DNA of 64,000 nucleotides from Phycisphaerales bacterium (GCA_020353195.1 CP070691.1:3375052-3439051), one strand, 5' to 3'; counted from the first letter of the stretch, positions 1-45,018 are shown. The notes: a model not told the origin generated them from the letters alone. Numbers and translations are program-made.

Positions 1-77
1 GTGGGTCCCGCGGCCTTCAAAGCCGTTGAGGGGTCGTTTGCGCGGCCCATGGTGGGTTCGATTCCCATCCACTCCCG
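1..77 (+). tRNA. selC: tRNA-Sec (anticodon UCA), 5' part cut off by window edge
   Basis: The window begins inside a selenocysteine tRNA. Anticodon TCA (17-19) lies in a seven-base loop (15-21) closed by a five-pair stem (10-14 with 22-26). A long GC-rich variable arm follows (about 27-50). The T-arm has stem 52-56/64-68 and loop TTCGATT (57-63). The 3' acceptor strand is CCACTCCC (69-76), eight bases as in bacterial tRNA-Sec, with discriminator G77. CCA is not encoded. The acceptor 5' strand and most of the D-arm lie outside the window. tRNA-Sec decodes UGA as selenocysteine together with SelA, SelB and SelD, none of which is in this window. Confidence 0.9.
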
Positions 78-96
78 TTCGCCGCAGGCAAACAGA

Positions 97-113
97 GTCC
101 GCCGAAGGCGGAC
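97..113. repeat. short perfect hairpin after tRNA-Sec
   Basis: GTCCGCC-GAA-GGCGGAC is a seven-pair stem with a GAA loop, 20 bases after the tRNA-Sec end. It has no T-run, so it may be a processing or termination signal or a small dispersed palindrome. Almost the same 17-mer, with A/T instead of G/C at its ends, lies inside the methylase gene at 59439-59455, which favours a dispersed repeat. Confidence 0.5.
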
Positions 114-289
114 AGTCTACTCTCAACTTCTCAGTGTGCCTTGAAGTCGCCCACTGTCGATTGGCCTTGTGACGGCGGCGAGCTTCGCTGACCCCGTTTG
201 GGTTTGCCTATGGGCCGCCACCGAACCATCCGATGGGTCACGAGGCGGTAAGGGTCGGTCGGTCGCGGGCTTCGTGTGAGGACTGATGG

Positions 290-982
290 ATGTCAACGAA
301 CATGCCTCAGGCAGCGGCCGAGTCACACGAACCCAGCCGTATTGCCCGCGTCGGTGGCGTCGTCTTGCTCACAGCAATCACATTTCACTGGATTCCCAGC
401 TACTGGGCGTTCCACACCCGGTTCGTTTTCTCCGGGGCGGGTCATCCTTGGGATTACTATCTCTCCATGGTGTTTCTGGGCGCGCTCCTGACTGTGGTGG
501 CACCGAGGAGTTGTGGCTTGGCGTTGGGCCAGATGTGTCAGCGGTGGCGGACCACAGGCGTATTCGCGGCCATCCTCATTGTGCCGTCAATCATCACCAT
601 GTCCTTCTTGCAGGTGCCGTTCTATGGTGCCAGTCCGGCGGTCTTTGTCTGCGTCCCGCTTTATGAAGAGTTGCTGTTCCGTGGCTTCCTCTTTGCCGTC
701 GTTGCCGAGGCCTGTCCACGCAGTTGGTCGGTGCGGGGCGTGACCGTCTCGACAGCCGCTTTGGTAACGGGTTTTGCCTTTGGGCTGTGGCACCTTGGAG
801 GTCTTCGGCTGCCGGAACAAGGATTCTACTGGTTTCAGGTGACATATACTGTTATTGCCGGCGTGCTTTTCGCCATGTTGAGGGAACGAACCGGAAGTAT
901 CTGGCCCTGTTGGCTAATCCACGCTTTCGTCGACACTTGGGCGGTCAACGTGCCTGCGGTTTGGGGTTCGGGGGGAGCATAG
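290..982 (+). CDS. CPBP-family intramembrane metalloprotease
   Basis: A 230-residue multi-pass membrane protein with the three conserved CPBP (CAAX protease and bacteriocin-processing, Abi) motifs: EELLFR with Glu126-Glu127 and Arg130, a second motif with a His near 168 (FGLWHLGG), and a third His near 211 (WLIHAFVD). These residues form the predicted metal-binding catalytic site in the membrane. The start at 290 is chosen because GAGGA (278-282) stands seven bases upstream. Bacterial members are linked to prenyl-protein processing, bacteriocin self-immunity or regulated proteolysis; the substrate here is unknown. It is the first gene after tRNA-Sec and is followed by a degenerate GTGTCAGG-type element. 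A second, unrelated CPBP gene lies at 47642-48436. Confidence 0.85.
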   Translation: MSTNMPQAAAESHEPSRIARVGGVVLLTAITFHWIPSYWAFHTRFVFSGAGHPWDYYLSMVFLGALLTVVAPRSCGLALGQMCQRWRTTGVFAAILIVPSIITMSFLQVPFYGASPAVFVCVPLYEELLFRGFLFAVVAEACPRSWSVRGVTVSTAALVTGFAFGLWHLGGLRLPEQGFYWFQVTYTVIAGVLFAMLRERTGSIWPCWLIHAFVDTWAVNVPAVWGSGGA

Positions 983-1003
983 GGGGGGTGGAGCGAGTGA
1001 CGG

Positions 1004-1059
1004 CGAGAAAGGGTCGCCAGGATCATTCTGCCCGAGTCTTGCGTACAGCGCCCTCGCCG
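1004..1059. repeat. degenerate left part of a GTGTCAGG palindromic element (E0)
   Basis: The stretch GAGAAAGGGTCGCCAGGATC followed by a CCCGAGTCTTGCG box matches the left arm and inner box of the other elements, most closely E2 at 3794. It starts about 20 bases after the CPBP stop codon. It ends exactly where the duplicated lipoprotein unit (1060-1908) begins, so the right part of the element is missing. Confidence 0.5.
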
Positions 1060-1908
1060 GTCATGTTGCCAGGGGCGTGCACGATAACTACATCAGGAGG
1101 AATCCACGCATCGTGGAGGTTGCCTGTCGCCCGATTGAGCGGTTCTGTTTTGCTCGTTGAGGCAGTATCGGTGCTCACAAAAACCACAAGAATCCTCCTT
1201 ATGTGTGGGTCCGTGGGTCTCTTTCTTCTTGGCGGCTGCAAACGGCAGAAACCTGCGGACGATGGCAGCAACAGCGATGTCAATAAGATGGCTAGCGGAT
1301 TCCAGCTTGTGGATGGTGTGAGCGTGACCAACCTGGACGGGATTTCTGAAGGATACTCAGTCGCACAGACGGACGCAGGTTATTTCCATTTCGTTGCGAA
1401 CGTCTCGGCGGAGCGTTTTCAGACGGTGCTGATGACCCTGGCAGCACTGGTGAATGAACCTGGTCATCTCATCATCGAGAAGGGCACCCATCGTGACGAT
1501 GAGGAACGTCTGCGCAAGACCGAGGCTGATCCATTCCACTGTGACGTCTTTTACCTGGACAACATTTCCTTTGTGCGTTTTCGGAGCATATTCGACCGTT
1601 ACTCTCGATTCTTCATTCACTGCGGTGGAACGAACTTTGGCTTCGGATCAGGAGAGGGCACTGACGAGGTATTCGTTGACAGGTATAAGATTGTCGTCAT
1701 CTATGCCGATGATCCGCAGAAATACATCGAGGCTCTGGAGACACTCCGCATTCCGAAGCGGTCGGAACTCAAGACGGTGTGGTCCAATTTCACCGAAGCG
1801 ACTCCTGGATCTACAAGCGTGATCACCGTTGAGGGCAAGACCATCCATGAGGTCGTTGAGGAGTTGAAGAAAGAGGGACTCTACTTCGCAGAGCGGCGTG
1901 AACAATGA
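1060..1908 (+). repeat. duplicated lipoprotein unit, copy 1
   Basis: An 849-bp segment that recurs at 5971-6819 with a constant offset of 4911 bases and no insertions or deletions. It includes about 110 bases of upstream sequence plus the complete lipoprotein gene. Both copies have a truncated palindromic element immediately on their left. Confidence 0.85.
1171..1908 (+). CDS. hypothetical lipoprotein, paralogue 1
   Basis: A 245-residue protein with a lipoprotein signal peptide (lipobox LLGGC, lipidated Cys23), so it should be anchored to a membrane facing the periplasm. GTG at 1171 is preferred because GAGG stands eight bases upstream and the signal peptide begins there; an ATG at 1201 would remove half of it. 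The frame is open further upstream, but that part diverges non-synonymously between the two copies and looks non-coding. The mature part is acidic and soluble with no recognised domain. It is about 91% identical to the paralogue at 6082-6819, with differences concentrated in the signal peptide and first 75 residues. Confidence 0.75.
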   Translation: MLTKTTRILLMCGSVGLFLLGGCKRQKPADDGSNSDVNKMASGFQLVDGVSVTNLDGISEGYSVAQTDAGYFHFVANVSAERFQTVLMTLAALVNEPGHLIIEKGTHRDDEERLRKTEADPFHCDVFYLDNISFVRFRSIFDRYSRFFIHCGGTNFGFGSGEGTDEVFVDRYKIVVIYADDPQKYIEALETLRIPKRSELKTVWSNFTEATPGSTSVITVEGKTIHEVVEELKKEGLYFAERREQ

Positions 1909-2076
1909 GGCAGAGAATCTCCTGTTTTCACAGGAAGAACCGTGACTTTTTATCGACAGATGTAGGGACTAGGTGGTTTTTCAGACACGGCTGGAGGCGA
2001 CAAGGGGATTGCTGGGGAGGGTGGGATAACCTGTGCCCGACCCGTCGTGGGACACGTAACGAGGCGAAGTAACCCG

Positions 2077-2523
2077 ATGTGCGTGCTAAGAGCATACGGC
2101 GAGCGATTCGACGTTGACGAATTCATGAGGGACTCGAAGTTGTCCCCGTATCAAATCTATCACAAAGGGGAGCGTAGGTTTCCAAACAGCTCTCGAAACA
2201 AGACCTGCTTTGAGGTTTCGGGCTTGCAGATCGATGTCAGCAAACGGGAATGGGATGACCTTCCTGGGCAGATCGAGGATGCCATCGACTTCCTCCACAG
2301 ATTCCACGACGAGCTTCAGCGATTGGTCAGCTTCGCAGGCGTCGAGGACGTGGGTCTGGATTTCCCACATGACCTACGAATCGGGCGTCCTGGTGTGGCA
2401 GTGCAGTGCGATTATCTGCCGTCGTCTTTGCTGCGAGAAGCGGGCAACCTTGGTATTGGAATTGAAGTGTCTCTCTATCCTGCGGGAGGCGAGACCGACG
2501 AACTGGGAGACCACGAGTCCTGA
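2077..2523 (+). CDS. hypothetical protein, possibly DUF4279-like
   Basis: A 148-residue soluble protein without a signal peptide. ATG 2077 is chosen over the upstream in-frame GTG because GAGGCG stands ten bases before it. The N-terminus (CVLRAYGERFDVDEF, then a Gly-Glu-Arg stretch) recalls DUF4279 proteins, which open with a strand and an 'xxYGxxFDxDxF' pattern and occur near immunity proteins. That resemblance is weak and from memory. A palindromic element (E1) follows 60-70 bases after the stop. Nothing in the neighbourhood indicates its role. Confidence 0.6.
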   Translation: MCVLRAYGERFDVDEFMRDSKLSPYQIYHKGERRFPNSSRNKTCFEVSGLQIDVSKREWDDLPGQIEDAIDFLHRFHDELQRLVSFAGVEDVGLDFPHDLRIGRPGVAVQCDYLPSSLLREAGNLGIGIEVSLYPAGGETDELGDHES

Positions 2524-2585
2524 GGAAGAGACGAGCGAAGGGCGTTGTAGACCGACTGGCGGGCAAAGGGTCCTTCGTTTTCGGG

Positions 2586-2752
2586 AGGAAAAAGGTGTCA
2601 GGATTCTTTTTCAGGCGTTTCGCGTGGGGGGCGGCTTTCTGGCGACGCAACCGGCGGCGACTCTCTATCGCCTCGCGGGTGGTCTGACATGTCGGTGGCC
2701 AGCGCGAGGCCACTGGCAACACGCGTAAAAGAATCCTGACACCTTTTTTCGG
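2586..2752. repeat. palindromic GTGTCAGG element E1, complete
   Basis: Terminal inverted repeats AAAAAGGTGTCAGGATTC (from 2589) and GAATCCTGACACCTTTTT (to 2749) enclose about 115 bases that can fold further. E1 lies between two convergent genes, so transcripts from either side would end in a long stem followed by a U-run: a plausible bidirectional terminator. A 25-bp motif just upstream (2540-2564) recurs beside E2 with two mismatches. Confidence 0.8.
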
Positions 2753-2947
2753 AGAGCCCTGAAAATGCTGAAAACCGCCGGGGCATCCGTTGAGACTCAA
2801 TCGACCGCAGAGGGACGTGGCGACGACTCAACGAAGCCGTAACTGCGCAAGCTCAAAGGGAAAGATCCCGTACAAAGAAGGGGGGAGTAGCGTTTTCTCC
2901 CACCCCACCGTAACCGAAGGCGGAAAACAACCGGGGCCTTCCATCTC

Positions 2948-3514
2948 TTACTCGTACCAGTTGTCAGGGGGGACTCTCCATGGAGGGTCGCAGGGGCGCG
3001 GTGCTGCGATTTCGATGGACATCAAGTGCTGCCGCAGTTGCGCCATGTCCGCATTATGCTGAAACTGGGCGAAGTCGCCGACAGTTTCCTCATACAATAC
3101 GCAATGGTCCTTCAATCGAATACCCAGTCGCTCCGAAGCGGCGTCTACTATGAGGTAACCCCCCTCCAGCTCCAGAAGTCGCTCCTGAGTTGCGATGAAT
3201 CCTAGCAGCTGTTGAAGTTGCTCCGCTGTCAGCTTCCCTTCCACGTAACTCTTGCCAATCGTGCCTTCCGATTCCACCCGGACGATCCGACCGTCCGACC
3301 AGACGCCTACAATTGGTCCACAGATCAACTCGGGAGAATAAGCCGGGTAGCGATGAAACATGACAAGTGGCACTTCGGGGTAACTCGGGTCCACTGCGAG
3401 TTTCCGGGCCTGCGATGCCGCCTTCTCTTTTGAGCAGAATGAAAGCAAGGCGCAACATGCGAAGCAGCAAAGCAGATACCGGCAGACCTCTTGCTTGGGT
3501 CTTCTTTTCGCCAT
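2948..3514 (-). CDS. hypothetical exported protein
   Basis: A 188-residue protein with a basic N-terminus (MAKRRPK) and a hydrophobic, Cys-rich segment (about residues 12-27) that serves as a signal peptide. The possible lipobox LSFC at 25-28 has Phe at the -1 position, which is atypical, so lipidation is uncertain. The rest is soluble with no recognisable family. It stands alone on the minus strand between E1 (downstream) and E2 (upstream). Confidence 0.6.
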   Translation of the reverse strand: MAKRRPKQEVCRYLLCCFACCALLSFCSKEKAASQARKLAVDPSYPEVPLVMFHRYPAYSPELICGPIVGVWSDGRIVRVESEGTIGKSYVEGKLTAEQLQQLLGFIATQERLLELEGGYLIVDAASERLGIRLKDHCVLYEETVGDFAQFQHNADMAQLRQHLMSIEIAAPRPCDPPWRVPPDNWYE

Positions 3515-3793
3515 GACATGAGCTCCAGGTGTAGCTTACTCGCGGCGCTTTCGGTTGTCCACGTCAGACCCACATGGTGTCGGCGGTTGGTCTCTTGGCA
3601 CCCGAAAGGAGCCTCAGCAGGAACAAACATTTTCGTGTTCGTAAAGAAAACGTGATCGTCCATCGACACAGCCTCGGTTTTGATGGTTTTGGGACACAGA
3701 ACTGGGGCTGGAATGGCATACCGTGCATTGCGAGAGTCAGCAGGCGGCATCATTGTGCAGGGGCGTTGCGGACCGACTGGCGGGCCATGCGAG

Positions 3794-3957
3794 GAAGAAG
3801 ATTGTGAGGGTCATTTCTCCCGAGTCTCGCGTTCAGGGGCGTCGCTAGTGACGCTGCCAGTGGTGGCTGTTTGCCGCCTCGCGGGTGGTCTGACATGTCG
3901 GTGGGTGGCGCGACAGCGCCAGCGATCGGCGTAAAAGAATCCTGACACCTTTTTCCG
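3794..3957. repeat. palindromic GTGTCAGG element E2, degenerate left arm
   Basis: The right arm (3933-3954, AAAAGAATCCTGACACCTTT) is intact. The left arm (GAAGAAGATTGTGAGG at about 3794) is eroded. The inner box CGCCTCGCGGGTGGTCTGAC is shared with E1. The element lies about 30 bases downstream of the stop codon of the minus-strand gene at 3987-4490. Confidence 0.75.
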
Positions 3958-3986
3958 GTGGCATCGACGAAACGACTGACCAGGGG

Positions 3987-4490
3987 TCATGGAGACGTGG
4001 AAGGGGCCGGACGAACTGCGTCGGTCTTGGTTTCGATTCCCTGAATCTCGACGCCGGGCTTGGGGAAACACAGCGCTCGGTCTTGCCCGTAGTCAGTCCC
4101 GGCCCAGGTCCCGTCGTCCGCCAGGGCTTCGCGTAGATCGTCAAAGACCAGAGGGAAGCGCGCCTGAAACTCCGGCTCGCTCAAGAACTCCGCCAAGACG
4201 TTGCCCACGGCGTCTTCGATGGTATAGCGATGCCCAGTGTATATCCTCACGCTGTGATCCCGTGCGCAAAGGCTCCCGAGCAGCAACGGCTTTTCAGTAG
4301 ATTCCTCCGCCGCGTGCTCTCCATGTAGAGTGAGCTTCGCAGCAGATTGGCCAGGCGCCTTCCCTGTGTGCTTGACCTTCGCGGGACGGTCATTGCCTTC
4401 ATCCACCTGCGCTAAGGGAGCGTCCTTCAATCCGCACGCACAGCCGCCCGCTATCAAGGCCGCAAACAACGCCAGTCCGACGCGCGTCAT
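3987..4490 (-). CDS. hypothetical lipoprotein
   Basis: A 167-residue lipoprotein: MTR, a hydrophobic core and lipobox LIAGGC with lipidated Cys17. ATG at 4490 is chosen because GGAGGT stands seven bases upstream; an ATG five codons earlier lacks this spacing. After the signal come a charged linker (residues 18-60) and a soluble domain ending in Pro/Ser. No family recognised. It lies on the minus strand between E2 (downstream) and the tandem elements E3 and E4 (upstream). Confidence 0.65.
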   Translation of the reverse strand: MTRVGLALFAALIAGGCACGLKDAPLAQVDEGNDRPAKVKHTGKAPGQSAAKLTLHGEHAAEESTEKPLLLGSLCARDHSVRIYTGHRYTIEDAVGNVLAEFLSEPEFQARFPLVFDDLREALADDGTWAGTDYGQDRALCFPKPGVEIQGIETKTDAVRPAPSTSP

Positions 4491-4631
4491 CGCCGATACC
4501 TCCAAAGCCCAAAGCTCGTATCCACTACATCACGATTATACCATGAAAATGTTCCTCGGGCGCAGGCACTGTCAGGGGGCCAGACTGCCTCAGAGTGGCG
4601 AGTAGGTGTCCGGATCATTCATCCGGGAGGT

Positions 4632-4794
4632 GAAGAAAGTGTCAGGATGGTTTTTCCGGGGTCCTGCGCGTGGGGGCCTCTCGCGCGATGCGGGCGGCCG
4701 TGACTGTCTGACGCCCCCTGGGTGGTCTGGCGCGTCGGTGAGCGGCGCGACAGCGCCGGCGGTTGGTGAAAAAGAATCCTGACACGTTTTTCGG
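4632..4794. repeat. palindromic GTGTCAGG element E3, first of a tandem pair
   Basis: The left arm GAAGAAAGTGTCAGGATGG begins near 4632 and the right arm AAAAAGAATCCTGACACG ends near 4791. The interior is nearly the same as E4, which starts 24 bases later. This pair sits between two divergently transcribed genes, so here the element cannot be acting only as a terminator at gene ends. Confidence 0.8.
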
Positions 4795-4817
4795 CCCAAA
4801 ACTATTTTTCCGGGACG

Positions 4818-4985
4818 CGAAGAAAGTGTCAGGATGATTCTCCTGGGGTCCTGCGCGTGGGGGCCTCTCGCGCGACGCGGGCGGCCGTGACTGTCAGCCG
4901 CCCCCTGGGGGGTCTGGCGCGTCGGTGAGCGGCGCGACAGCGCCGGCGGCCGGCGTGAAAGAATCCTGACACCTTTTTTCCGGGG
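4818..4985. repeat. palindromic GTGTCAGG element E4, second of a tandem pair
   Basis: The left arm GAAGAAAGTGTCAGGATG (4819 on) and right arm GAAAGAATCCTGACACCTTT (to 4979) flank an interior shared with E3, including CTGCGCGTGGGGGCCTCTCG and GGCGCGACAGCGCCGGCGG. E3 and E4 look like a recent tandem copy. E4 ends about 105 bases before the DUF1579 gene. Confidence 0.8.
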
Positions 4986-5091
4986 GCTGGCGGGCTTGCG
5001 GCACGGCGGTACAATGCCGCGCGCGGAAGTCACAAGTCAGATTCACAGATGCAGTACGCGAGGACCGGACAATCCAGCAGGAGGCAATCCA

Positions 5092-5709
5092 ATGAAAAAG
5101 TCACTTGTTGTCGTGATGGCCGCTGCGATCGGTGTGACGGCGTTCCTGAGTGGCAGGGCCGTCTCTGGTCAGCTCGAGGAGAAGCAGGAACCGAAGGAAC
5201 CGAAGAAGGCCAAGATGCCGGAGATTCCCACGCCGCCGACGCAGCTCAAGGCCCTCACCGCGTTCGTCGGCGACTGGCGAAGCACGTTCGAGCACCTGCC
5301 GGCCATGTTCGGCGAGCCCGGCACCGGGACCGGCGAGTTCCACTGCGAATGGGTCCTGGACAACTGGTTCGTGATGGGCAAGGGAAGCTCCACCGGCTCG
5401 TTCGGGACGCACAAGTCCATGTGGATGGTGACGTACGATCCCAAGATGCAGACGTATCGGTCGTTCGCTTTCGACAACTACGGAACGTGCAGCACCGCCA
5501 CGTTGACGCATGATCCCGAGACGAACACCTGGCTCCAGACCTCCGACGGTGTTGATTTCCAATCCGGCAAGCCGGCCGAGATTAAGAGCATGATGCGCTT
5601 TGTCGGCAAGGACAAGCTCGAGTGGGAGTGGCACCAGAAGGCCGAGGGCGAGACCGAGTTCACGCTGATGATGAAGGGCGTGGACACCCGCGTGCCCGCT
5701 ACACCATAG
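5092..5709 (+). CDS. DUF1579 family exported protein
   Basis: A 205-residue protein with a signal peptide (MKKSLVVVMAAAIGVTAFLSG), a short Lys/Glu/Pro linker and one DUF1579 domain. Typical DUF1579 features are visible: a start at the FVGDWR motif (about residue 63), the GEFHCEW and GTHKSMWM strands and a final strand near the C-terminus. The family forms a lipocalin-like beta-barrel of unknown function and is common in planctomycetes. ATG 5092 follows AGCAGGAGG with seven-base spacing. Element E5 begins two bases after the stop codon. Confidence 0.85.
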   Translation: MKKSLVVVMAAAIGVTAFLSGRAVSGQLEEKQEPKEPKKAKMPEIPTPPTQLKALTAFVGDWRSTFEHLPAMFGEPGTGTGEFHCEWVLDNWFVMGKGSSTGSFGTHKSMWMVTYDPKMQTYRSFAFDNYGTCSTATLTHDPETNTWLQTSDGVDFQSGKPAEIKSMMRFVGKDKLEWEWHQKAEGETEFTLMMKGVDTRVPATP

Positions 5710-5710
5710 T

Positions 5711-5935
5711 CCCGAAAAAAGGTGTCAGGTTTCTTTTTTCGGGGCCGGGATTGCGAGGCTCTCTCGCGGTGTGGCCGGCACAGGCTCGGGCGCGTCGCGG
5801 TCCGCATCCTCTGCGAACGCGACCGGCCGAATGACACGGCCCCTCGGCAGATGACAAACAGCCCCCGGCTGCGCTGCCCACTGCGGTCGAGGCATACGCC
5901 CACGTCAATCACCGCCGGCGGCGGTGGTGACAGGG
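5711..5935. repeat. palindromic GTGTCAGG element E5, right arm lost
   Basis: The left arm is itself a palindrome, CCCGAAAAAAGGTGTCAGG running into CTTTTTTCGGG (5711-5743). The interior resembles E8 (TGTGGCCGGCACA, GACACGGCC, CAGATGACAAAC). No right arm is present: sequence similarity ends close to 5971, where the duplicated lipoprotein unit starts. Confidence 0.75.
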
Positions 5936-5970
5936 CAGGCCTAAGACTTCTGTCACCCACGTTCTTGCAG

Positions 5971-6819
5971 GTCACGTTGCCAGGGGTGTGGACGACAGCT
6001 ACATCAGGAGGAATCCACGCATCGTTGAGGTGGCTTGTCTGGCGATTGAGCGGTTCTATCTTTCTCGTTGAGGCAGTATCGGTGCTCACAAAAACCAGAA
6101 AAACCCTCCTTATGTGTGGCTTCGTGGGTTTCTTGCTTCTTGGCGGCTGCAAACGGCAGAAACCTGCGGACGATGGTAGCAATGGAGATGCCAATACGAT
6201 GGCTATTGGATTCCGACTCGCAGATGGTGTCAGCGTGACCAACCTGGACGGGATTTCTGAAGGGTACTCAGTCAAACAGACGGACGCAGGTTCTTTCCAT
6301 TTCGTTGCGAACGTCTCGGCGGAGCGGTTTCAGACGGTGCTGATGACTCTGGCAGCACTGGTGAATGAACCTGGTTTTCTCATCATCGAGAAGGGTACGC
6401 ATCGTGACGATGAGGAACGTCTGCGCAAGACTGAGGCTGATCCATTCCACTGCGACGTGTTTTACCTGGACAACATTTCTTTTGTCCGGTTTCGGAGCAT
6501 ATTCGAACGTTACTCTCGATTCTTCATTCACTGCGGTGGGACCAACTTCGGTTTCGGATCAGGAGAGGGGACTGACGAGGTATTTGTTGACAGGTATAAG
6601 ATCGTCGTCATCTATGCCGATGATCCGCAGAAATACATCGAAGCTCTGGAGAAACTCCGCATTCCGAAGCGGTCAGAACTCAAGACGGTGTGGTCCAATT
6701 TCACCGAAGAAACCCCTGGATCTACAAGCGTGATCACCGTTGACGGGAAGACCATCCGTGAGGTCGTTGAGGAATTGAAGAAAGAGGGACTCTACTTCGC
6801 AGAGCGGCGTGAAGAATGA
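5971..6819 (+). repeat. duplicated lipoprotein unit, copy 2
   Basis: The partner of 1060-1908, same length with no indels. It is bordered on the left by truncated E5 and on the right by the left arm of E6, five bases after the stop codon. The unit may have moved or been copied together with these palindromic elements. Confidence 0.85.
6082..6819 (+). CDS. hypothetical lipoprotein, paralogue 2
   Basis: A 245-residue lipoprotein with lipobox LLGGC (Cys23) and a GTG start at 6082 preceded by GAGG, as in paralogue 1. About 21 residues differ from the copy at 1171-1908. The last 170 residues are almost invariant, so the mature domain seems to be under constraint in both. No domain recognised. It is flanked by elements E5 and E6 and has no operon partner. 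Confidence 0.75.
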   Translation: MLTKTRKTLLMCGFVGFLLLGGCKRQKPADDGSNGDANTMAIGFRLADGVSVTNLDGISEGYSVKQTDAGSFHFVANVSAERFQTVLMTLAALVNEPGFLIIEKGTHRDDEERLRKTEADPFHCDVFYLDNISFVRFRSIFERYSRFFIHCGGTNFGFGSGEGTDEVFVDRYKIVVIYADDPQKYIEALEKLRIPKRSELKTVWSNFTEETPGSTSVITVDGKTIREVVEELKKEGLYFAERREE

Positions 6820-6823
6820 GGCG

Positions 6824-6893
6824 AGAAAAAAGGTGTCAGGTACCTTTCCCAGGGGCCTACCGTGGGGCGCTGTCTCGCGACGGGTCGGGCGTG
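6824..6893. repeat. palindromic GTGTCAGG element E6, left part
   Basis: The left arm GAGAAAAAAGGTGTCAGGTA starts five bases after the lipoprotein stop. The following inner sequence (GGGGCCTACCGTGGGGCG...TCTCGCGACGGG) matches the interior of E3/E4. No right arm can be found before the next gene at 7016. Confidence 0.65.
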
Positions 6894-7015
6894 ATCTGCC
6901 TTGCCGCGCGCCTGGATTGCCGGCGCAAGGGCGGTGCATGCCTCGATGGAGAGGACTCCCAAGCCGCCAGGGAGCGGGTATAAACTTGGCCCCTGGTCCT
7001 TGGAGGTGCACGGGT

Positions 7016-7588
7016 ATGCGCCGGATCGGCATTCCACGCAGGCTCAGCGACCCGACGATGCTCGTGGGCATGCTGTGGGCATGGGTGATCGGCATTGTTG
7101 CCCTCTGCATTGTGGCCGACAGTACGCCAGGCATGCCTCCCAAACACGATTACCTGGACGAACCACCAACCATGCCCCTGGGGCAGGCGCTGTTCGGATC
7201 TTCTGCTTGCTGGGCGCTGTCTGTCGCTCCCTTCACGATTGGTGCAGGCATATACGGGTATATCAAGCTCGCCCGCCTCCGGCGCGCGGCGCGCTTGAAG
7301 TCCGAGCCGCGGCGCTGTCGGAGCTGTGGATACCTTCTGATCGGAATACCTCTTGATCGTTGCCCGGAATGTGCTACGCCACCGGACGCCGACGCGGAAC
7401 GTCAGGCCGCGCTTGCCGACGAGTCGCGCAGAGAATGGGCACGCATTGCCCTGGCGTCTGTGTGTGTTATCGCGCCCCTCTGTCTGTCGGTCCAAATTCG
7501 ACCTCCCGGGTCCTTTACTGCTCCTGTTGTTGCCGCATCCATCGTTTGGTGGTCCGTTCATCGACTTGCCCGCCGTTGCGTTCCGTGA
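7016..7588 (+). CDS. zinc-ribbon membrane protein
   Basis: A 190-residue protein with two predicted N-terminal membrane helices (about 14-32 and 60-85), a cytoplasmic zinc ribbon (CRSCGY, then CPEC about 14 residues on; about residues 103-121) and one or two C-terminal helices. ATG 7016 follows GGAGGT with eight-base spacing. Small membrane proteins with this ribbon are numerous in planctomycetes and of unknown function. The protein at 7819-8121 carries the same ribbon with the order of parts preserved. It is bracketed by elements E6 and E7. Confidence 0.7.
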   Translation: MRRIGIPRRLSDPTMLVGMLWAWVIGIVALCIVADSTPGMPPKHDYLDEPPTMPLGQALFGSSACWALSVAPFTIGAGIYGYIKLARLRRAARLKSEPRRCRSCGYLLIGIPLDRCPECATPPDADAERQAALADESRREWARIALASVCVIAPLCLSVQIRPPGSFTAPVVAASIVWWSVHRLARRCVP

Positions 7589-7661
7589 CGCCAGCTTGCC
7601 CCGCTGTTCGACAATATCGTGATGTCACGTTATGGCACTTGCTCAAGCGTTTGTGTCGTCT

Positions 7662-7794
7662 AGAAGAGTGTGGCACTGGTTTTTGCTGGGGGCGGCCCCG
7701 TCGCGGTGCGGCCGGCTGCGGTCGCTGCATGCCCACCCGTTCAATCACCTCCGCTGGCGATGCCCATAAAAGAATCCTGACACCTTTTTTCTGT
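7662..7794. repeat. palindromic GTGTCAGG element E7, degenerate left arm
   Basis: The right arm (7767-7790, TAAAAGAATCCTGACACC plus six T) is intact. The left arm AGAAGAGTGTGGCACTGG (about 7662) is eroded. It sits between the 3' ends of two convergent genes. Confidence 0.7.
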
Positions 7795-7818
7795 CCAGTG
7801 TGATGATCACCTTACGGA

Positions 7819-8121
7819 TCATATCCGCTCGCCGCATTCCGGGCACCTCGGTTCCGTGATGCCCCGCAGGATATAGCCGCACTCTCGGCAGCGGGTCTCG
7901 CGATCATGGGCCTTCGGGCCGTATCGGGCGGTCAGGAGACCGTAGACGCAGACCGCGATGATCAGCGGGACAATCGACCGAGTAATCGACAGACCGATCA
8001 AGAAGGACGTGTTCGGTGGCGCAACGAATGCCGTAAGGAACGCGTATGTGGCTACGGACAACGCAAGGCTGCCCGCGAATCCCACGATTACCGCAATCGC
8101 CGCTCGCCAGAACCAGTGCAT
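7819..8121 (-). CDS. small zinc-ribbon membrane protein
   Basis: A 100-residue protein: two membrane helices (about 6-33 and 42-66), a short basic loop and a C-terminal zinc ribbon CRECGYILRG...CPECG (about residues 79-98). This 'CxxCGYxLRGxxxxRCPECG' ribbon is a hallmark of many small planctomycete proteins; the function is unknown. GAGGA stands nine bases upstream of the ATG. The possible gene at 8136-8402 ends 14 bases upstream on the same strand. Confidence 0.75.
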   Translation of the reverse strand: MHWFWRAAIAVIVGFAGSLALSVATYAFLTAFVAPPNTSFLIGLSITRSIVPLIIAVCVYGLLTARYGPKAHDRETRCRECGYILRGITEPRCPECGERI

Positions 8122-8135
8122 CAGTCCGGGTCCTC

Positions 8136-8402
8136 TTAGTCTCCCGTATCCATCACCTGCGCCGCCGCTTGCATGGGCCCCGGTGCCGCCGCTTGCCGGA
8201 CTTCTCCAGTGTCGTCCGGGATGCCGCAGACGTTGCTGCTGCAGTCGCGGCGCGCAGCCGGAACGACGTATCCGGTGTCTCGCATGCTCCGCGGCGCGAC
8301 CCGGACGCCGGGCTTCATGCCGGGATCATAGCCCGGATGCCCGAATCGGTCAGCTACGCTGCCTTCCGGTGACCATCGGAGGATTGGGAAAGCAGGTGCC
8401 AT
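8136..8402 (-). CDS. possible small hypothetical protein
   Basis: An open frame of 88 residues on the minus strand directly upstream of the zinc-ribbon gene. It contains three short Asp-Thr-Gly motifs (RDTGYVV, DDTGEV, MDTGD) and a CSSNVC pair. No ribosome binding site of good quality precedes the ATG and no family is recognised. It may be real because of the tight spacing to the next gene, but chance coding in this GC-rich DNA cannot be excluded. Confidence 0.25.
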   Translation of the reverse strand: MAPAFPILRWSPEGSVADRFGHPGYDPGMKPGVRVAPRSMRDTGYVVPAARRDCSSNVCGIPDDTGEVRQAAAPGPMQAAAQVMDTGD

Positions 8403-8870
8403 ACCGAACGGGCAACAAGGGAGCCATCGACAACGCGACGACGACAAGTGGCCGATGCTCCTCTTGCGAACGGAGATGCCATGTGATATGCTGATAGTGT
8501 CAATGGCCGGAAGGTGGCGAGAGCCGTGAGCCTTCCATCGAACACCCGTCACGGGCAGCAGGGAGAGGCGTTCCGCAGCGTACTCTCTCTTTTCTTTCTG
8601 CCGCAAGCCCGCGGCCCGACCAGCATTGGTTCCGAGGTCGTCGGCGACGTGATGGGGGCCAGCGCGGTCTTTCTAAACCCGGGGCGTCAGCCGGTCCGGG
8701 CTGGCCGGGTCGAGCCAATCGAGATGCGGCCGATCGTCGGCCGGCATGCAGTTCACAGGCCAATGATCGGTGCCGGGAGGGCAGTGCCGTATAGAGCACA
8801 TCGTTGGTCTGGTTGGCCCTCGTCGGGCCGGCGGAGGTGACTCAGCGGCCGTTCTCACAGGACACCTCAC
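8403..8870. other. intergenic stretch, nothing recognised
   Basis: No gene, RNA or clear repeat is seen. The plus-strand open frame near 8514-8840 has no ribosome binding site and a composition typical of chance frames. Confidence 0.4.
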
Positions 8871-9659
8871 ATGACTCGCACCAGCAACCGCATTCACCGG
8901 GTGTGCGGCCACGGCGCGATGGTCGCGTTGCTTGCCGTGACGCCGTTTGCCCTGGGTGACGTGATCTATGAAACCGAAGACCCCTTCGGGGGTATCTTCG
9001 GTCTGTGGGGCGCCGATGTGTGCATTGACCAGTCGGTGGGGCTGCGCTTCACGCCGACAGCGGATTACAGGCTTGACCGGGTGAGCGTGTGGTTTATGAG
9101 CAACGACTTCACCGGCCAGACCCACCCTCTCGTGGAACTGACGCTGCGCACAGATGACGATAGCACTGCCGACGTCAGCGTTCCGAGCGACAAGGTCCTC
9201 GAGGCCTGGAGCTTCAACGTCTCGGCCGTCGGCTGGAATCCGGTGCTCGAGGTGGTGGATTCCGTGGCTCACCCTTTGCTGGAGGTCGGCGTGGACTACT
9301 GGATCGTGGCCGAGTCCCAGGCCCCCGGTGGAGACGACGGCGTCTGGAACTTCGCGTCGTCCGGCACCGGGTTCATGGCGTTCAGCCTTGGCTACGGTCA
9401 GCCGTGGCAGCCCGGCCACGAGGGCGCGGTGGCGTCGACGATCATTGAAGGCACACCGTTGTCGGCCGGCGACATCGACGGTGACGGTGACGTGGACCTT
9501 GACGACTTCGGTGAGTTCGCGGAGTGCATGGCCGGTCCGGACGTCGCCGTCCCGCCGGCCGGTTGTACGCAAGCGGAGTTCTCCAGGGCCGACATCGACA
9601 CCGACAGCGATGTGGACCTCGGCGACTTCGCCGGGTTCCAGCAGGTGTTCACGGGCTAA
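8871..9659 (+). CDS. exported protein with C-terminal dockerin-like repeats
   Basis: A 262-residue protein with a signal peptide (about residues 1-29, ending near ALG), a beta-rich domain (30-195) like the ones found in 'choice-of-anchor' extracellular proteins, and a C-terminal pair of dockerin-like calcium loops: DIDGDGDVDLDDFGEF (about 199-214) and DIDTDSDVDLGDFAGF (about 242-257). In planctomycetes this doublet ends many secreted proteins and may dock to a cohesin or simply bind calcium; the cohesin-like protein at 32921-35257 is a possible partner type. Element E8 begins right after the stop, following a duplicated GGGCTAAGAAAA. Confidence 0.8.
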   Translation: MTRTSNRIHRVCGHGAMVALLAVTPFALGDVIYETEDPFGGIFGLWGADVCIDQSVGLRFTPTADYRLDRVSVWFMSNDFTGQTHPLVELTLRTDDDSTADVSVPSDKVLEAWSFNVSAVGWNPVLEVVDSVAHPLLEVGVDYWIVAESQAPGGDDGVWNFASSGTGFMAFSLGYGQPWQPGHEGAVASTIIEGTPLSAGDIDGDGDVDLDDFGEFAECMAGPDVAVPPAGCTQAEFSRADIDTDSDVDLGDFAGFQQVFTG

Positions 9660-9669
9660 GAAAAGGGCT

Positions 9670-9917
9670 AAGAAAAGGTGTCAGGATGATTTTTCCGGGT
9701 TCTTGCGCGGGAGTTTGCTCCAGCGATCTGGCCGGCACATGCTCGAAGCGTCGTGGTCCGCATCCTTCGCGGAGACGATCGCCCGCATGACACGGCCGTT
9801 CAGCAGATGACAAACGGTACGCCGCTCCGCCGACTGCGGTGATCGGGGCGTACCCTCGCGTCAACCACCGCCAGCGGCGATCGGCAAAAAAAGAAACCCG
9901 ACACCTTTTCTCTCGGG
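9670..9917. repeat. palindromic GTGTCAGG element E8, complete long form
   Basis: The left arm AAGAAAAGGTGTCAGGATG (9670 on) and right arm AAAAAAAGAAACCCGACACC (to about 9910) enclose about 190 bases resembling E5. It separates the 3' ends of two convergent genes. Confidence 0.8.
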
Positions 9918-9921
9918 ATGG

Positions 9922-10374
9922 TCAATGGAACGACTCCATTGACTGGCGCAGCTTCTCGGTGTCGGCTGCGATGGCGTCGGCCAGTCCGGCGGCCTCGATC
10001 GTGTACACGCGCTCGGGCGTTACATACAAGGCTACGAGATATGCCAACCGGTTCTGCCCCTCGCCGATCTCAAACGTGAACAGCACGCCAATCAGGCCGC
10101 TGCGTGACCGGAGCTCCCGACGCCCGACGAGCTTCATGCCATCCACATCGACCTTCTGGTGCTCGACGGCCGCGGCCCAGAAATCCAAGTCGGCGGACCG
10201 ATCCTCGTTTGCTCGCGATGACAAAGCGATGGCATTCCCCTGGGGCGAAACCGCCTTGAAATCGTAAGGCTTCGGGGCCTTCAGCTTGACATAGCCGTCA
10301 GGAGGCTCGAGGGTGGCGCAGCCGACCAGCCCGACCGGCAAGAGAAAACAACAGAGCACTCGGGTGCGGTTCAT
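9922..10374 (-). CDS. hypothetical lipoprotein
   Basis: A 150-residue lipoprotein (lipobox GLVGC, lipidated Cys19) with a mixed alpha/beta domain that resembles small periplasmic lipoproteins of unknown function. Its start codon is 12 bases downstream of the stop of the DUF4349 gene at 10387-11172, so the two form an operon. E8 follows its 3' end and could terminate the transcript. Confidence 0.7.
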   Translation of the reverse strand: MNRTRVLCCFLLPVGLVGCATLEPPDGYVKLKAPKPYDFKAVSPQGNAIALSSRANEDRSADLDFWAAAVEHQKVDVDGMKLVGRRELRSRSGLIGVLFTFEIGEGQNRLAYLVALYVTPERVYTIEAAGLADAIAADTEKLRQSMESFH

Positions 10375-43889: not shown

Positions 43890-43953
43890 CACCGCGCGGT
43901 GCCTGAAAAATCATCCTGACACCTTTTTTAAAAAATCAACCTGACACCTTTTC
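43890..43953. repeat. palindromic GTGTCAGG element E9 with doubled arm
   Basis: Two copies of the arm stand head to tail: AAAAATCATCCTGACACC (43905 on) and AAAAAATCAACCTGACACC (43930 on), each followed by a T-run. It lies 14 kb or more from any other copy shown except those in the 1-10 kb array. The distal arm encodes the last codons and stop of the heptosyltransferase gene. Confidence 0.75.
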
Positions 43954-45018
43954 CAGCCAGGATGCGGTGGCGCGGACGACGGGGTCGACGTCCACCTGGT
44001 GCATGCATTCGTGGCCGTGGGGGCACTGGGTCAGGGACCGCAGATAGCAGGGTACGCAGGGGAGGTCGGCCTGCAGGAGGTAGGCGTGCGATGCGTAGGG
44101 CCCGGTGCGGCGGGGGTTCGTCGGGCCCAGGATGCACACGATCGGGCGCCCCAAGGCGGCGGCGATGTGCGCGGGGGCCGAATCCTGACAAACGACCACC
44201 GACGCCCGCTCGAGGATCGCCACCATCTCGCGCACGCCGGAGCGGCCCGCCAGGTTCACCGGAGAAAGCTCGCGGGGCGCCGACGCGTTCGCGGCGATCG
44301 CCGCACACAGGTCGGCTTCGTCCCGAGTGCCCATCAGTAGGGTGCGGACCCGATGTTCGACAGCCAGGCGGCTGACGACGCTCGTGTAGCGCTCGGGCAG
44401 CCACCGTTTGGCTTCCCCCCGGGCACCGGGAAGGATCGCAACGAAGGGCTCCCCGCTGGTTACGCCGGCTGCCCCCAGCAGGTCGGCGGCCCGTTGGCGC
44501 TCGGCGTCGGTCACCGCCAGGTTGAACGTGACCGGTACGTGGTCGAAGCCGAGAACCGAGGCGATCCGGTAGTTCTTGTCCACGGCGTGAAGCTCCGGAT
44601 CCGGCGTGTCGATCTCGTGCGTGTAGAAGATCCAGGCGAGCTCGCGGGCGGAACGGAAGCCGATCCGCATTGACGCCCTCGACGCCAGCGTGAGGAACCC
44701 GCTGCGGAACAGACCCTGCAGGTCGATGGCCAGGTCGAATTCCTTCGCCCGCAAGTCGCTGACGAACCGGGCGAACTGGCGGCTGACGTGCATGCTTCGG
44801 CCGATGCGCCCGAACCGACGCCGGTCAAACTCGATGACCTCGTTCAGTTCCGGGTGGTGCCGGATGAGCGGGGCGCAGGCGGTTGAGATCAGCCAGGCGA
44901 TGTGGGCACTGGGGAACCGCTCGCGCAGCCCGTGAAGCACGGGTAGCGCATGGACGACGTCGCCCAGGGAACTGGGTTTGATGAGCAGAATGCGTTGATG
45001 GTCGGCCTGGTCCGTCAT
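43936..45018 (-). CDS. heptosyltransferase-type glycosyltransferase (family 9)
   Basis: A 360-residue GT-B enzyme of family 9 (WaaC/WaaF type): LLIKPSSLGDVVHALPVL at the start, IDLQGLFRSG, the acceptor/donor motif ILPGAR...KRWLPERY and the C-terminal CQDSAPAHIAAALGRPIVCILGPTNPRRTGPY. It should add heptose or a related sugar to lipid A core or another glycolipid at the inner membrane. The C-terminus is odd: EKVSG and the TGA stop are encoded by the arm of element E9 (GAAAAGGTGTCAGGTTGA), so the element has trimmed or replaced the original end. Confidence 0.87.
   Translation of the reverse strand: MTDQADHQRILLIKPSSLGDVVHALPVLHGLRERFPSAHIAWLISTACAPLIRHHPELNEVIEFDRRRFGRIGRSMHVSRQFARFVSDLRAKEFDLAIDLQGLFRSGFLTLASRASMRIGFRSARELAWIFYTHEIDTPDPELHAVDKNYRIASVLGFDHVPVTFNLAVTDAERQRAADLLGAAGVTSGEPFVAILPGARGEAKRWLPERYTSVVSRLAVEHRVRTLLMGTRDEADLCAAIAANASAPRELSPVNLAGRSGVREMVAILERASVVVCQDSAPAHIAAALGRPIVCILGPTNPRRTGPYASHAYLLQADLPCVPCYLRSLTQCPHGHECMHQVDVDPVVRATASWLEKVSG

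Follow-up and report, generated by a model that had tools for sequence, protein, structure and literature searches.

The closest described relatives of the elements considered here are TIRYTs or TIRtrons, Y1 transposase genes flanked by terminal inverted repeats (TIRs; PMC3733652), which have also been discussed as subclass 2.1 (PMC6006769). The motif GGGGWSAS is stated for some of these TIRs only (PMC3733652), and subclass 2.1 has been described with extra C-terminal domains (PMC6006769). Judged by sequence, the palindromic elements at the present locus would be RAYT/TIRYT 'TIRtrons' and miniature derivatives of them, and hence belong to a published class. The initial annotation had proposed an undescribed arrangement in which repeats collect single genes next to tRNA-Sec; Y1 transposases between TIRs had, however, been published before (PMC3733652). 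Like a TIRtron, the system comprises a Y1_Tnp gene between inverted repeats at a constant distance that is conserved among homologues, and copies of the repeats are also dispersed over the genome singly, in pairs or in groups. Unlike the described cases, it has a different TIR sequence, with an arm core (GGTGTCAG) one base off the published GGGGWSAS, a short protein of about 230 aa, and copies crowded in one 7-kb block. The reading favored here, with a probability of roughly 0.8, is that the elements (E0-E9) are TIRs and internally deleted miniatures of a RAYT/TIRYT-kind Y1 (HUH) element that accumulated in a decayed tRNA-Sec island.

The window, i.e. the whole stretch of 64,000 nucleotides that was analysed, corresponds to C1:3375052-3439051 of a 3.79-Mb Phycisphaerales genome, which is assembled as a scaffold interrupted by 100-N gaps; one such gap (L023:12953-13052) abuts the left edge of the window. 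An aldehyde-dehydrogenase-like gene to the left of the window runs into this gap. With at most one mismatch, the arm AAGGTGTCAGG matched the window 14 times against 0.77 matches expected, a number reached by none of 100 shuffles. The alternation of genes and palindromic elements that had been noticed at first reading is confirmed. This alternation arises because the elements sit in intergenic gaps, and two gaps (1909-2046 and 8122-8870) contain none. On the plus strand, type A comprises the two-armed E1 (2585..2752), E2 (3791..3958, left arm decayed), and the two-armed E3 (4624..4792) and E4 (4809..4980), the latter being a tandem copy of E3 with 90.6% identity. E0 (about 1019..1075, plus strand) is a weak, decayed left end with 74% identity to E2 over 57 bp, and E6 (6823..6882, plus strand) consists only of the left end of an element, with 73% identity to the left ends of E1 and E4. 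Type B, likewise on the plus strand, comprises E5 (5712..5923, right arm lost), E7 (7703..7792, only a right end) and the two-armed E8 (9668..9914), which like E1, E3 and E4 has both arms intact. E9 (43895..43959, minus strand), two left arms in tandem, is indeed the sole element in the remaining 54 kb of the window. The mixed orientation reported earlier applies to the genes, which point both ways, and not to the elements, as all eight from E1 to E8 lie in one orientation with the left end on the left.

This uniform orientation, the E3/E4 tandem and a duplicated 865-bp unit that adjoins element ends would all fit a local amplification, in which recombination between same-orientation repeats rather than transposition gave rise to the majority of the block's copies. 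Such an origin is possible and the strongest of the alternatives, yet we consider it doubtful for most copies, as E1, E2 and E3/E4 have differing flanks and a mutual identity of only 72-78%, and elements of both types are interspersed with unrelated genes. Identities among the elements reach only some 70-90% overall and thus give no sign of recent movement. Under the favored reading of TIR elements in a decayed island, recombination between repeats of the same orientation may still be the origin of the E3/E4 tandem and of the duplicated unit, which carries an integrase tail and a lipoprotein gene.

A search of the genome with Y1_Tnp returned two genes. One of them (C1:3479125-3479811), 94 kb rightward of the block, is intact and sits between copies of the same arms, two on its left and one on its right; it scores above the cut-off of PF01797, and HWH and RYVEANA are present in its translation. 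A Y1 transposase, guessed at earlier as a possible agent, was thus found. Compared by BLAST, the transposase element aligns with E8 (201 bp, 75%), E5 (153 bp, 72.5%) and E7 (50 bp, 86%; the match to its right end extends to 73 bp at 77%), and these three hold the 5' end of the transposase coding sequence, as E5 does, or the right terminus of its element. By these alignments, E5, E7 and E8 are internally deleted copies of the transposase element. The block elements have the right-arm variant GGATTCTTTT in common with the resident transposase element, a variant seldom seen among the relatives listed. Two points weigh against this reading: the interior of the type A elements (E1-E4) is not recognisably derived from the transposase gene, and the protein reaches 58.8 bits with the NCBIfam model of REP-associated tyrosine transposases, below its cut-off of 80. 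Type A elements are absent elsewhere in 114 genomes of the order, save for short end matches, one of them to a genome of the same genus (G001), at the right end of its transposase element. No relatives of the transposase with a solved structure were found by sequence. At 2.3 kb to the left of the intact transposase element there is another of its left ends, in decayed form (L024:6773-6883). The other Y1 transposase in the genome (L025:6192-6908) is distant, with 30% identity to the first, and has no such arms nearby.

The elements share with RAYT/REPtron and REPIN systems a single-copy HUH transposase gene accompanied by non-autonomous short intergenic repeats. They differ in the lack of a GTAG-tagged REP hairpin, as the arms contain no GTAG, in arms that mostly do not fold on themselves, and in a number of 20 arms as opposed to hundreds. 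A model of self-folding REP hairpins was rejected, as clear folding was seen only in the left arm of E5 and one other arm. With MITEs they have in common a length of about 165-245 bp, TIRs, a lack of coding capacity and an apparent origin as internally deleted copies of a transposase element, whereas the transposase is Y1/HUH and not DDE. Small unrelated genes set apart by a repeated palindrome also recall integron cassette arrays, from which the locus differs in that the repeats are the TIRs of a transposase and in the uniform orientation of the elements among genes of mixed orientation. An integron array was rejected on these TIRs, on the lack of an integron integrase and on the two remnants of a different recombinase type described below.

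The genes between the elements begin with a CPBP/Rce1-like intramembrane protease (290..982, plus; PF02517, E 1.5e-21), followed by the C-terminal remnant of a tyrosine recombinase (1032..1157, plus; E 3.5e-15 to the G008 tail, with tblastn matches to full-length integrases) and a lipoprotein gene with no Pfam match (1201..1908, plus). Next come a DUF4279-like gene (2047..2523, plus; PF14106 at 24 bits, just under the cut-off of 25), an unassigned gene (2948..3514, minus), an open frame for an exported protein with no Pfam match (3987..4505, minus) and a DUF1579 gene (5092..5709, plus; PF07617, E 7e-11). A second recombinase remnant (5949..6065, plus; E 4.2e-16, 54% to full-length integrases) precedes the second of the two copies of the lipoprotein gene in the genome (6112..6819, plus; protein 92% identical to that of copy 1). 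Two genes for zinc-ribbon membrane proteins (7016..7588, plus, with a weak rubredoxin-like Pfam match; 7819..8121, minus, with similar DNA at C1:1018246) and one for an exported protein with a dockerin-like end (8871..9659, plus; repeated motif D11, no Pfam match) complete the block. The genes had been called unrelated, which is not true of the two lipoprotein genes, as 1053-1917 and 5964-6827 form the 865-bp duplication with 91.6% identity. Each lipoprotein gene copy is preceded by the peptide LAGHVARGVDDSYIRRNPRIVEVACLAIERFYLSR or a close variant, two occurrences in all, which matches the C-terminus of tyrosine recombinases (Phage_integrase). The initial annotation had seen no integrase and suggested a search for a tyrosine recombinase; no integron integrase was found, and the suggested recombinase is present in the form of these two C-terminal remnants. 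A defence-gene island was also considered and rejected, since none of nine block proteins had a PADLOC match.

The operon from 9922 to DUF4349 is conserved in three relatives, and the stretches examined contain no cargo gene beside it. Conserved gene order across the block was rejected, given this absence and a homologue of the gene at 2948-3514 that lies in another neighbourhood in the same-genus genome G001.

At the left edge of the window, positions 1..77 (plus) are the 3' part of a second tRNA-Sec gene: window 1-80 matches complete tRNA-SeC genes elsewhere, as called by ARAGORN, and the 5' part falls within the 100-N gap. Neither ARAGORN nor Rfam called a tRNA at this edge because the gene is truncated by the gap. 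The complete copy of the genome is found at C1:836 kb, where it adjoins an isochorismatase-like gene, and such a gene stands beside tRNA-Sec in the same-genus genome G001 too. Base composition to the right of the truncated copy is unlike that of the host: positions 81-7015, elements excluded, have a GC content of 57.0%, compared with a minimum of 63.1% for stretches of 6.9 kb between 10 and 64 kb. The spot beside tRNA-Sec looks like an island. As in tRNA-Sec/selC islands, the 3' end of tRNA-Sec recurs in relatives as a boundary, an integrase lies directly behind tRNA-Sec in one of them (G019), and the composition in the window is foreign. Unlike such islands, the window contains integrase remnants only, no right att site, and a tRNA-Sec that is a second copy. 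A decayed integration hotspot at tRNA-Sec offers the simplest explanation for the window's foreign genes. Against this part of the favored reading stand the absence of a right att site from the window, with no second copy of the tRNA-Sec 3' end in its first 16 kb, the absence from the genome of a full-length integrase of the remnant type with the query used, and the position of the join to the 5' half of tRNA-Sec, which falls in the assembly gap.

The low GC content of the genes, the divergence of the elements and the lack of recent copies could also mean that the block arrived with its elements as one piece from an element-rich donor, so that nothing moved within this genome. Such an import is unlikely, and less probable than local amplification, as the GC content of the elements is 63.5%, the same as that of the host, as their right-arm variant is that of the resident transposase element, and as type A occurs in the other genomes of the order only in the form of short end matches. 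For TIR elements in a decayed island, the order of events would rather be as follows. A tyrosine recombinase specific for tRNA-Sec, parts of which are seen in the sequence, probably laid down foreign units at the second tRNA-Sec. These units would then have lost their integrase and boundaries, with the two C-terminal remnants left. The resident Y1 transposase presumably acted in trans on the arms, moving or copying short elements into intergenic gaps, and a tolerant stretch, here an old GC-poor island, would let them accumulate.

Among 100 relatives, a homologue of the transposase is encoded by 69, and strict arm matches occur in 27. In related planctomycetes the close homologues almost all have the same TIR on both sides, with a span of about 745-770 bp, while remoter homologues in Nitrospira, Betaproteobacteria and others often have different but similar TIRs, e.g. 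AAAAGGGGTCGGGAGTC. Across planctomycetes the TIR family is well defined, with a sequence that varies by transposase lineage. Such lineage-specific TIRs provide natural pairings in which to study the recognition, by Y1 transposases, of TIRs without a strong hairpin. In one relative (L049:2426-2551, G031), TIR arms form a tandem array beside a transposase gene, spaced by about 34 bases.

In one conceivable form of gene collection by repeats, the left and right TIRs of different miniatures would act jointly as the ends of a larger unit, so that the Y1 transposase would mobilise a single passenger gene along with the left and right ends around it, as in a cassette array. One zinc-ribbon gene does lie between E6, only a left end, and E7, only a right end, and both copies of the integrase-tail/lipoprotein unit lie directly to the right of an element's left end. 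The ends of E6 and E7, however, differ in type and enclose the sole candidate in the window, and the cargo genes are found in either orientation, as opposed to a single one for the elements. In relatives, at least 24 pairs of facing arms were read by eye among the matches listed, of which 6 enclose the transposase, 18 enclose 49-309 bp and none encloses any other gene. Mobilised single genes are accordingly very improbable, and the collecting of genes by repeats is not supported: the elements are better read as Y1 TIRs with deletion derivatives. An integrase of the tRNA-Sec type explains the acquisition of genes beside tRNA-Sec better than the repeats do, and what appeared to be one gene-collecting system resolves into two known processes, Y1 TIR elements and an integrase that uses tRNA-Sec.

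A search of the genome with a model of the 40-base arm found exactly 20 arms: 12 in the block, two in E9, four at or near the transposase gene and two elsewhere. The 12 arms of the block lie within 7.3 kb, or 0.2% of the genome, which shows that the elements are concentrated here, as first supposed, and are not terminators spread evenly over the genome. When 20 arms were placed at random, a stretch of 8 kb received at most 4 in 20,000 trials, as compared with 11 observed. As many as 18 of the 20 fall inside 102 kb, a regional spread that is to be taken with care since that stretch includes at least one scaffold gap. Strong local clustering, with all elements of the block in one orientation, is unusual; perhaps it reflects the tolerance of the island for insertions. 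Least probable of all is a reading of the elements as common bidirectional terminators or REP-like sequences at the ends of genes, even though E5, E6 and E8 begin no more than about 10 bases from a stop codon and the left arm of E5 folds well, given this distribution, arms that mostly fold no better than shuffled sequences, terminator-like sites that are not enriched in 1-10000 (10 against 9.0 expected), and arms that flank a transposase gene.

At the tRNA-Sec loci examined in relatives no such elements were found, except for one GGTGTCAGG match in L099. In G019, a full-length Phage_integrase relative of the remnants starts about 60 bases behind tRNA-Sec. The 3' end of tRNA-Sec recurs downstream in four further genomes, enclosing one to several genes, and its copies there bound small gene sets (L061:3162-6075 in G004, L060:1647-7613 in G008, L091:3461-4793 in G010 and L090:3123-5103 in G069). 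These sets may deserve more attention than the palindromes. Single genes that lie between tRNA-Sec 3' ends with no integrase are a SUKH gene in G008, where the integrase-less unit spans 1.1 kb, and a gene for 289 aa in G010. In G004, a frame behind tRNA-Sec (L061:3325-4020) fuses the N- and C-terminal ends of an integrase, the middle being lost. The 111 bp that precede the tRNA-Sec repeat are 88% identical between G008 and G069, which belong to two different families, and from this similarity look like a shared att arm.
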